Assembly (NCBI GenBank): GCA_963965975.1
Contig: OZ014416.1
Span: forward strand, 8,350,432 to 8,414,431
Direction: 5' to 3'
Origin: Xestospongia bergquistia
Taxonomy: Eukaryota; Porifera; Demospongiae; Haplosclerida; Petrosiidae
DNA length: 64,000 nucleotides
Program-made: the position numbers and the translations under genes
Notes under the pieces: model-generated
Seen by the model: the letters and a program-made list of their open reading frames with translations, nothing else
What the model was told of the DNA's origin: nothing
The model's database searches: none
Shown here: positions 33,001 to 35,629 of the stretch, in pieces
Layout of the letters: every line of letters starts with the position of its first letter
Numbering within the stretch: position 1 is the first letter of the stretch

Positions 33001-35629
33001 CTTATTTAAGATTTAAAGCCTCTCTTAAAGATGATGAAGAGGTTACTGACCTTAAGCTCAGTTTTAAAGGAATGAGAGAAAAGACAAGTTTAGTGATTGC
33101 TAATTATGATTTGCAACAAATCAAAGGTATGAAAATGAGATGATTAATTAATATATACATAATTAAATATGTAATAAATGACTTTATAAAGCTAAAGTAA
33201 TTTTATATTTTTATGTAGATATATCTGAGAGTACAAAATCTTCATGTAAACTAAACATTCCAAATGACTTGTTATGTGAGTCATTTAAATGTAAAATAAA
33301 AGTTCTTATTAGAGATTATACTTTAACATTATGTAATAGTATGGATAAACATTCTTCTTCATTAGGTAAGGTACCAAAGAAGCGTCACCTGATGATGTTA
33401 CTTCATCCAATTAAGTATATGTGGAATACATTTGGTGAACAACTTGAAGTACCTTATGATTATATAAAGTCTGCTGAGTACAATGAGGCCTATGGAGATA
33501 CTACAAAATTCTCTGAAGTCCTTCAGGTCTGGATGAATAAGAAAACTTGTGTAGTTTGTTGGCAAACAATTATTACTGTTGTAGAAGAGCCACCTGTAGA
33601 GAACAAAGTAGTAGCTGATAATATATATCAGTTCTTAACAAGACCAGATATTCAGAATGAATATCTGTCTTCTCATCATCAGACTGGTAAAATAAAATTT
33701 ATTATTTATAAGATGTTCTTTGTCATCACTCAAGGTCAAATGATCTGTACTTTTAATTCTCCTCCTCCAATTGTGCCAAAACCTACTGGAAAGAAAGGTA
33801 TAAGTTCTAACTAAGTTTCAGATTAATCATCTCTTTTTCTAGTAGAGATAGATGAAATGGAACAAGAAGCTCCATTACAATCATCTAATCCTATTGGAGT
33901 AAGAACTAAGAAAGAAAACGAAGTAGTAGCTGATGATATATATCAGTTCTTAACAAGACCAGATATTCAGAATGAATATTTGTCTTCTCATCATCAGACT
34001 GGTAAAATAAAATTTTATTATGTATATGAATATTGTTATCACTCTAGATCAGCTGATCACTACATTTAATTCTCCTCCTCAAATTGCACCAAAACCTACT
34101 CCACAAAAAGGTATAAATGCTAACAATTATTGTATATTAAAGAACACATACATTTTTCATTTGTTTGTCATTATAGGTTGCTCTATGTCTACTGCTATTC
34201 ATCCTCCAATTGCACCAAAACCCTCTACAAAGAAAGGTACACAATAGACTCATAAATACTTATTCATAATTTATTACTGCAGATCATCCTTTATCTTATC
34301 CTCCACTTCCAATTGCACCAAAACCTACTAAGAAGAAAGGTACTAGAATAATTTATTTCTGTATGCTCCTGGAGAGTGAATGATCATTTTTTCTTTTCTA
34401 GTGGAGATACATGCTGATGAAATGGAACAAGAAGCTCCATTACAATCATCTAATCCTATTGAAGTAAGAGCTATTTTTAAAAAAACTATCAAAATGTCTT
34501 TATCTTTCTTAGTTTGCTGCACATTGTCTTCATGAACAAGCTAAACAATGGGAGGAAAAAGATAATGATATGATAATAGCTACTAAACGTATGGCCAGAC
34601 TGATGATGAAAATGTCAAAGTTTGCCAGGTATATATATCATAGAGAATGAGCTTTGTATTTTCATGTAATATATTAATTGTTGTTACTTAATATTGTATA
34701 AAGGGATAAACTTATAATGATATTAACAATAAATTACAATACTTTATAGTTACATATAATTCTTTGCCATTCATTAGAATATAAACATTATCTTTCATTA
34801 CAACATGTTATTTGATTGAGTTTATATTTAATTCACTGCTGTGTTGTGGTATTGTTATTTTACGTAGTGATGAAGTTGATGAAGTGACATCCAAAGAGGA
34901 TTTTATGGAAACAGCTATCCTTATAGCAAGAGAGAGCAAAGAAGTTTTCAAAATGGCTAAGAAAATTGCTATTGTTTGCAGAGATAAGCAAGCTAACAAG
35001 GTGAGCAAAATTAGTACATTATAGTGACTAGAGGAAGTGATAGCTTGATATGTTCTTCTTTAATAGTGATGACATTAATATACTAAATTTGTAGTGAATA
35101 TAAATACATTTTCGTGCAACATTTTATCATAATATATAAAGAATCTATACTGAGTAACTTTTGTTATATATTTCAGAGAAGTTATATAGTCATTATTACC
35201 TATAGTTACAAAGAGAATTTATAGTATTCTACAGAGAGAGAATTTTTACTTGGGCATTTTTCTTGCCAAATTTTTTTGTTTCTTGTATAATACATTTTTT
35301 AATTTTTTTTATTTCATCTATTATAGAGTTTGGTACAAAGTTATGAAAAAATTGAAACCTTTGCTGATCAACTTCAAGCAAATGTTTCCAGAATAAATAC
35401 CAAACAAAAAGGAATAGGTAAACACGAACATAATTGATTATAATAATTATTGTTAAGTGATAAGTAGTAATCTAAAGTCATTCATTTTTACATAGACCCA
35501 AAAGAAGATGAGGAAGCCACTCAACTGTTGACAGTTAATGCAGAGAACCTAATGTCTGCAGTGTCTGAAGTACTCAGTAATTATAGCACTCTCAGTAATA
35601 CTGAGTCAGCATTACTGAAAGTACTATAA
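30012..35629 (+). CDS. ANK gene 1: ankyrin repeats, ZU5, death domain, Pro-rich linker, vinculin tail; 1001 aa
   Basis: Exons: 30012-30050, 30499-30597, 30958-31056, 31215-31313, 31472-31570, 31717-31815, 31860-32043, 32108-32682, 32770-32904, 32955-33126, 33219-33686, 33735-33797, 33843-34001, 34048-34110, 34177-34236, 34283-34339, 34402-34463, 34513-34628, 34868-35000, 35327-35417, 35496-35629 (TAA), 3006 nt in frame. Order: 13-residue leader; ankyrin repeats (14-240), one per 99-nt exon; ZU5 (about 250-370; [20 protein letters not shown]); a UPA-like middle region (about 390-535); a death domain (about 590-680; RHLMMLLHPIKYMWNTFGEQ, VLQVWM, CWQTII); small exons each ending in a PPxIxPKP motif; and a vinculin-type tail (845-1001). 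The tail carries KDNDMIIATKRMARLM, IARESKEVFKMAKKIA and EEATQLLTVNAENLM, and lacks vinculin's extreme C-terminal segment. ANK-ZU5-UPA-DD is ankyrin-like; the tail addition is unusual. Actin binding is inferred. Confidence 0.88.

Follow-up and report, generated by a model that had tools for sequence, protein, structure and literature searches.

The window analysed here, a stretch of 64,000 nucleotides at C6:8350432-8414431 of a 146 Mb genome, raises the question of whether a vinculin tail has become the last part of an ankyrin-repeat, ZU5 and death-domain protein and, if so, whether the gene stands alone. A first-pass annotation, made from the letters of the window, had placed an ankyrin-like body, a death domain, a proline-rich strap and a vinculin-type actin-binding tail without the vinculin head in one polypeptide. 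In this study, we rebuilt the gene from DNA, compared its parts with protein profiles and solved structures, and followed its relatives through the genome.

Results

The gene runs from 30012 to 35629 on the plus strand, the strand of all its parts given below. It comprises 21 exons with GT-AG at every junction, its phases join, and it encodes 1001 residues, so that the first-pass model, connected in phase and open throughout, held on reconstruction. The first coding exon, with the ATG, lies at 30012-30050, placed by its reading frame and GT-AG junctions. Ankyrin-repeat exons occupy 30499-32043, as judged from Pfam Ank families and the exon model, which resolves the block into an outer exon (30499-30597), four internal repeat exons of 99 nt (starts at 30958, 31215, 31472 and 31717) and a last ankyrin exon (31860-32043). 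The ZU5 exon (32108-32682, 191 residues) taken alone scores 24.2 bits against a Pfam cut-off of 21, and in the protein both the ankyrin repeats and ZU5 lie above their Pfam cut-offs. Two further exons 3' of ZU5 (32770-33126) are called UPA by position only; they are present in 13 of the 13 complete chains of the array described below. Between ZU5 and the death domain, a Pfam search of the whole 1001-residue protein gave no match for these two exons, and it returned one ZU5 over the cut-off and neither a second ZU5 nor UPA. The expression "ankyrin-like body" is loose, since the ankyrin part has four internal repeat exons between two outer exons and a single ZU5 was detected.

The death-domain exon (33219-33686) was assigned from the exon model, Pfam and a family profile. 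It may also start at about 33366, where an acceptor-like ...ATTAG (AG at about 33365) recurs in other copies and leaves the phase unchanged relative to 33219. The domain is weak in the window copy (E 0.016 for the exon, under the Pfam cut-off) and reaches a Pfam Death E-value of 2.6e-7 in one family member on another contig; at E up to 0.05, Pfam Death is found in 18 of 23 family members. With a profile built from 23 family death domains (genes G7 and L010 left out; G9, G10, L009 and L012 trimmed), FADD death domains made up the 10 best solved matches, at E 0.0012 to 0.0069. No NACHT or other STAND NTPase was matched in Pfam at E up to 1 in the 1001-residue protein, and a phmmer comparison of the ZU5-to-death region with solved structures returned only ZO-1, at E 1.4. 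In a collection of prokaryote genomes, 118 pattern matches to the ZU5 exon were obtained, 0 of which were confirmed as relatives.

Behind the death domain follow a first proline-rich mini-exon (33735-33797, phase 1 on both sides), an exon that combines a strap copy with a repeat of the end of the death-domain exon (33843-34001), and proline-rich mini-exons 2 to 4 (34048-34110, 34177-34236 and 34283-34339, all phase 1). The linker is partly duplicated within the gene, 33599-33685 and 33914-34000 showing 93% protein identity. The vinculin strap exon (34402-34463) is entered in phase 1 from these phase-1 proline-rich exons and ends in phase 0, with intron position and phase common to the vinculin-type genes on contig C1. 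Four tail exons close the gene and together encode 157 residues. Exon 1 (34513-34628) is placed by the exon model, Pfam Vinculin and solved-structure matches, exon 2 (34868-35000) by the exon model and Pfam Vinculin, and exon 3 (35327-35417), which carries Ala and Arg at the positions of human I997 and V1001, by the exon model and alignment. Exon 4 (35496-35629) stops early, and the exon model and comparison with paralogues indicate that their C-terminal arm is lost.

Elsewhere in the window, the gene before the ankyrin gene (26000-28777, plus strand) encodes a CAP-Gly protein of microtubule-binding type, its last exon matching Pfam CAP_GLY at 5e-13 and further CAP-Gly-like exons being recognisable by eye. 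Just ahead of one of its coding stretches lies, by eye, a short AT-rich tandem repeat (about 26190-26530). On the minus strand, 12170-16726 is a single open frame of 1518 residues, located in a more GC-rich stretch (0.40 against about 0.30), for which no Pfam match was found at 1e-3.

As to the identity of the tail, the 157 residues match Pfam Vinculin (PF01044) with an E-value of 9.4e-28 and 97.5 bits against a cut-off of 38.1, covering profile positions 683-822 of 852. When the whole protein is searched, the match extends to residues 795-983 (profile 636-821, E 7.8e-32) and takes in the strap. It is the only Pfam Vinculin match in the 1001 residues, and the vinculin head domains are accordingly absent from the searched protein. 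Among solved structures, VIN1 6bfi (7.3e-24) comes first, followed by vertebrate vinculin tails (about 1e-20), and alpha-catenin structures are much weaker, with 9.4e-8 at best. The window tail is identical to the vinculin tail of this genome at 87 of 151 aligned positions. The profile search proposed with the first-pass annotation thus returned vinculin and not catenin as best match, in support of a vinculin-type tail in the last four coding exons; chance resemblance and an alpha-catenin origin were both ruled out by the Pfam score and by the lead of the vinculin structures. Phage records gave no megablast match to the tail region.

With the tail as query, at least 38 copies of tail exon 1, two of them partial, were found in the genome; they are the ones, out of 107 matches, whose alignment begins at the first or second query residue, and such counts are lower bounds because the search scores candidates only. 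Three of these copies belong to vinculin-type genes at C1:25.60-25.61 Mb. For 34 of the 35 listed non-vinculin copies, a ZU5 exon of the same family precedes the tail by no more than 9 kb in the same orientation, and by 1.9-2.7 kb in 28 cases, the exception being C3:8155380, which has no family ZU5 listed within that distance. Neighbouring tails have a ZU5 in common in three of the 34, which leaves at least 31 distinct ZU5-tail pairs, including two at C1:21.3 Mb that are partial and diverged (ZU5 47-54% identical, one ZU5 frame full of stops). This pairing used 74 of 151 ZU5 matches, the weaker ones and three short partial ones at 58% identity or above being omitted. At least 61 ZU5 matches reach at least 58% identity, and a tail stands behind 29 of these 61. 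Of the 35 non-vinculin tail copies, 26 were read as DNA and nine were judged from coordinates. Twenty-five of these 26, all but an orphan tail, are preceded by a death domain in the same orientation.

Much of the family sits in a 264 kb array on C6, in which 13 complete chains of ankyrin repeats, ZU5, UPA, death domain, strap and tail follow each other in tandem on one strand, at least one of them broken by a stop. G7 has an in-frame stop in the death-domain core, and G8, G9 and G10 have in-frame stops ahead of it, which in G9 and G10 would be skipped by the shorter exon start. The array also holds three tail-less family genes, one stop-containing tail fragment and the orphan tail (tail exon 1 at C6:8482276), which consists of the strap and four tail exons with no ankyrin, ZU5 or death-domain exons of its own directly upstream. 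Two further family genes fall on the plus strand of the window. One, at 40417-53519, has 39 intact ankyrin repeat exons in an exon-plus-intron unit of about 257 bp, a ZU5 and a death domain, and no vinculin tail was found behind it; of the other, only the start is included (62259-64000), and it runs past the window to a complete tail with tail exon 1 at C6:8417511. Outside the array, a death domain is located upstream on the same strand in 11 of 11 loci (L007 on C6; L009, L010, L012, L013, L042, L045, L046 and L047 on C1; L044 on C4; L043 with L048 on C3), the one on C3 being judged by eye.

Several neighbours of these genes deserve separate mention. Within the array, C6:8497263-8500077 and C6:8551132-8553956 are related loci of a separate sub-family, in which three death-domain-like exons come after a diverged last-ankyrin exon. 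Behind a tail-less family gene, L022 contains, at about 3060-6030 (C6:8427459-8430431), another ZU5-like exon and an open frame of 477 residues with weak similarity to Roc/Ras GTPases, under the cut-off, which suggests other modules near this gene. At L048/L043 (C3:8117800-8126999), the linker from death domain to strap appears by eye to be much longer and to consist of acidic repeat exons.

The recurrence of the unit bears directly on whether the tail exons are a small gene of their own that merely lies 3' of the ankyrin gene. The orphan tail and the copy at C3:8155380 would fit such an arrangement; because a family ZU5 precedes 34 of the 35 listed tails in the same orientation, it is very unlikely, and the phase-1 entry into the strap exon from phase-1 proline-rich exons also speaks against it. 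We rejected it on the recurrence of the ZU5-tail unit and on exon phase, and give it hardly any weight. The data thus support one predicted polypeptide of ankyrin repeats, ZU5, death domain, strap and headless vinculin tail, as annotated, and the scope of this fusion had to be widened from a single gene to a multigene family; the window gene is no isolated curiosity.

The three vinculin-type genes on C1 allow the source of the tail to be considered. In a genome profile search, head pieces were detected for two of them (profile 52-147, 110-146 and 490-560) and no head was seen for the third (L003). In one of the genes, four of six candidate exons upstream of strap and tail match the Vinculin profile between 54 and 558. 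At the 3' end of all three, a EVDEMEQEAPLQAANPIGV-type strap exon precedes the tail exons, and strap exon, intron positions and phases are identical in the family and in the vinculin-type genes (strap to tail 1 in phase 0, tail 1 to 2 in phase 2, 2 to 3 in phase 0, 3 to 4 in phase 1). When two vinculin genes were compared with five family members, nucleotide similarity covered strap and tail exons and at most a few flanking bases; tail exon 3 of the window gene had no nucleotide match to the vinculin genes, and a 28-base minus-strand match between vinculin and family DNA (E 0.001) was taken as chance. DNA identity between vinculin (L005, L006) and family genes reaches 86-94% in tail exon 1 and about 70-79% in tail exons 2-4, suggesting either stronger constraint or gene conversion for the first. 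Since the strap exon, intron positions and phases are common to both and DNA similarity is confined to exons, the family tail is, on the evidence of gene structure, a product of exon shuffling from a vinculin gene. For one demosponge, the accessible part of the source reports a single vinculin homologue (PMC6820919).

Selection on the tails was assessed in an alignment and tree of 24 rows, 22 of them of the ankyrin type, which omits L010, because its sequence breaks off within exon 4, and four rows in which one exon was not found (L005, L007, L044 and a C6 fragment at position 263341 of the array). The pooled dN/dS of the 22 family tails amounts to 0.48 (codon bootstrap 0.36-0.62; 1 or above in 0 of 200). 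Type B tails by themselves give 0.69, with bootstraps of 1 or above in 33 of 200, so that a value below 1 is not secure there, and all these figures are descriptive because the pairs are not independent. The family tails are under purifying selection, though relaxed, and a tail dN/dS below 1 rules out a family made up entirely of dead copies, though single copies carry stops. Over the two supported ZU5 clades, tail types are distributed as four A and two B against three A and four B, with no clustering relative to shuffles. As both types are scattered over both clades, tails and bodies reassort.

The number of intact ankyrin repeat exons per array gene ranges from 4 to 39, and 183 of 195 candidate array exons, without stops and flanked by AG and GT, were compared, 57 of them from the three tail-less genes. 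As contact positions we assumed the six positions that are randomised in designed ankyrin repeat proteins. Over the 183 exons, mean entropy reaches 1.63 bits at these positions and 0.70 at the others (permutation p 0.0009), and dN/dS at the contact positions is 2.1 (bootstrap 1.3-3.6) against 0.56 for the framework, a ratio attained by random six-position sets in 539 of 20,000 cases locally and in 106 of 20,000 with whole-exon dS. For tail-bearing genes (126 exons) the two values are 1.64 (0.94-3.67) and 0.52, with 915 and 135 of 20,000 random sets, and for tail-less genes (57 exons) they are 4.57 (2.65-12.89) and 0.66. Contact positions thus evolve faster than the framework in tail-bearing and tail-less genes alike, and positive selection proper is secure only with the tail-less genes included.

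These values have to be weighed against a second explanation, according to which the proteins are plain mechanical adaptors between membrane and actin, parallel to the ankyrin-spectrin linkage, whose ankyrin variety reflects many membrane partners and which have no role in recognition or defence. The smaller contact-position excess in tail-bearing than in tail-less genes makes this explanation slightly more likely and a sensor slightly less likely. It also agrees with the order of ankyrin repeats, ZU5 and death domain, which is that of canonical ankyrins, generally understood as membrane-skeleton adaptors (PMC5135030, in part), and with the vinculin tail as a force-bearing actin binder, described in the available text of PMC10721916. 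However, at least 31 ZU5-tail pairs and at least 61 ZU5 matches, reassorting tails, 4 to 39 repeat exons per gene and fast contact positions suit a recognition repertoire better. We consider plain adaptors rather unlikely, though to be kept in mind.

The tails also vary in residues of known importance. Around the position of human I997, the window tail reads QLQANVSR, with Ala at I997 and Arg at V1001. Across 23 scored family copies of tail exon 3, the window copy included, the first position is Ile in 18, including the gene whose tail exon 1 lies at C6:8478586, and Ala in five, and the second is Val in 20, Ala in two and Arg in one, the latter being the window copy; the three vinculin-type genes of this genome have Ile and Val. 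In the portions accessible to us, I997A is the standard actin-binding-deficient control, with a reduction called large, amounting to 20% in one co-sedimentation assay and not complete (PMC10721916), and the I997/V1001 surface is reported not to be needed for localisation to focal adhesions (PMC5384775). In 19 of 22 aligned family members the position of human R945 is acidic, and in 19 of 22 that of K975 is Thr or Glu. We take R945 of human vinculin to be a lipid-contact residue, and PIP2 binding by the family tails is doubtful because of its acidic replacement. K975 presumably has a role in the head-tail contact of vinculin, and its change might be as expected after loss of the vinculin head; it is listed among the four T12 mutant residues (PMC5384775, in the part available). 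Paralogue tails finish in an arm such as TVPPEDHAQLTGLISWVKS, ahead of which the window copy stops. The window gene moreover has the fewest intact repeat exons among the 16 array genes counted. Since Ala at I997 and Arg at V1001 are combined with a missing C-terminal arm, the window tail is homologous, yet probably not equivalent, to a full actin-binding tail. We regard this copy as a derived, atypical member for which weaker F-actin binding is predicted than for the Ile-bearing members, and the label "actin-binding" given to it in the first-pass annotation is doubtful.

Such changes could also mean that the tail imitates vinculin as an integrated bait for foreign factors, or only dimerises, which would leave the actin-contact residues free to go. 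Compatible with this are the Ala found at I997 in five of the 23 scored copies and the single Arg at V1001, the acidic R945 position in 19 of 22 and the free reassortment of tail types with ZU5 types. Retention of Ile in 18 and of Val in 20 of the 23 copies is not what it leads one to expect, the decoy idea is an analogy with plant receptors, and we know of no factor attacking a vinculin tail in such animals. We therefore regard a bait as improbable. A related and similarly improbable arrangement is an animal integrated-target receptor, in which ankyrin/death-domain sensors reassort and the copied vinculin tail would act as a monitor of the adhesion cytoskeleton or as its substitute, actin binding having been lost entirely in some members.

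Discussion

With vinculin the family has in common the strap exon, a tail of four exons, the intron positions and phases of the vinculin-type genes in this genome and the match to Pfam Vinculin; it differs by the missing head domains, the altered actin-contact residues and, in the window copy, the missing C-terminal arm. The order of ankyrin repeats, ZU5 and death domain is that of ankyrins (ANK-ZU5-ZU5-UPA-death domain). Canonical ankyrins have 24 repeats, whereas the family has 4 to 39 one-exon repeats, one ZU5 detected, no UPA match and an added vinculin tail. In PIDD and UNC5-type proteins, ZU5 is likewise followed by a death domain, in combination with leucine-rich or extracellular parts, in contrast to the ankyrin repeats and vinculin tail found here. 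According to the available text of PMC5135030, nine sponge species were reported to be without genes combining ankyrin repeats with ZU5-ZU5-UPA. A further parallel is the TRADD-N clade of Amphimedon, for which expanded death-fold and repeat proteins were discussed in connection with immunity and self/non-self recognition (PMC8195603, eLife 2021, in part), and which has in common with the present family a lineage-specific expansion, death-fold domains and variable repeats. The word vinculin has 0 occurrences in the obtained text of PMC8195603, and the TRADD-like_N Pfam model had no match in this genome, nor in any control genome.

The first-pass annotation had known of no described protein with this order. 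None was found among the literature matches listed, which cover titles and abstract openings outside subscription papers and most preprints, so that, as far as searched, the modules are all known and their combination and repertoire-like expansion are undescribed. Predicted proteins of this architecture may already be present, unremarked, in public annotated protein databases.

We lean towards a model in which the ankyrin/ZU5/death-domain proteins with vinculin tails are intracellular sensors or scaffolds whose tails would tether them to F-actin. Here an ankyrin-repeat/ZU5/death-domain gene acquired, through exon shuffling, the last strap exon and the four tail exons of a vinculin gene of this animal and subsequently multiplied. 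The variable ankyrin array would bind a target, the part from ZU5 to the death domain would assemble a signalling or scaffolding complex, and the headless, unmasked tail would hold this complex on (cortical) F-actin and/or acidic membrane lipid. Actin tethering, death-fold signalling and an immune-like role in recognition are what we infer for the family from its modules and their variation, which together suggest variable recognition receptors tied to the cell skeleton in a way that has not been described.

Read in this manner, the genes would constitute a large, receptor-like family in which the vinculin tail is freed from the head that normally masks it. Its members, with Ile or Ala at I997 and with or without the C-terminal arm, would offer a natural series for probing the vinculin tail outside adhesions, and the family would show how exon shuffling can add a cytoskeletal anchor to a recognition-like repertoire. 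It would thereby make testable whether the sensing of self, non-self or microbes is coupled to the actin cortex in such an animal.
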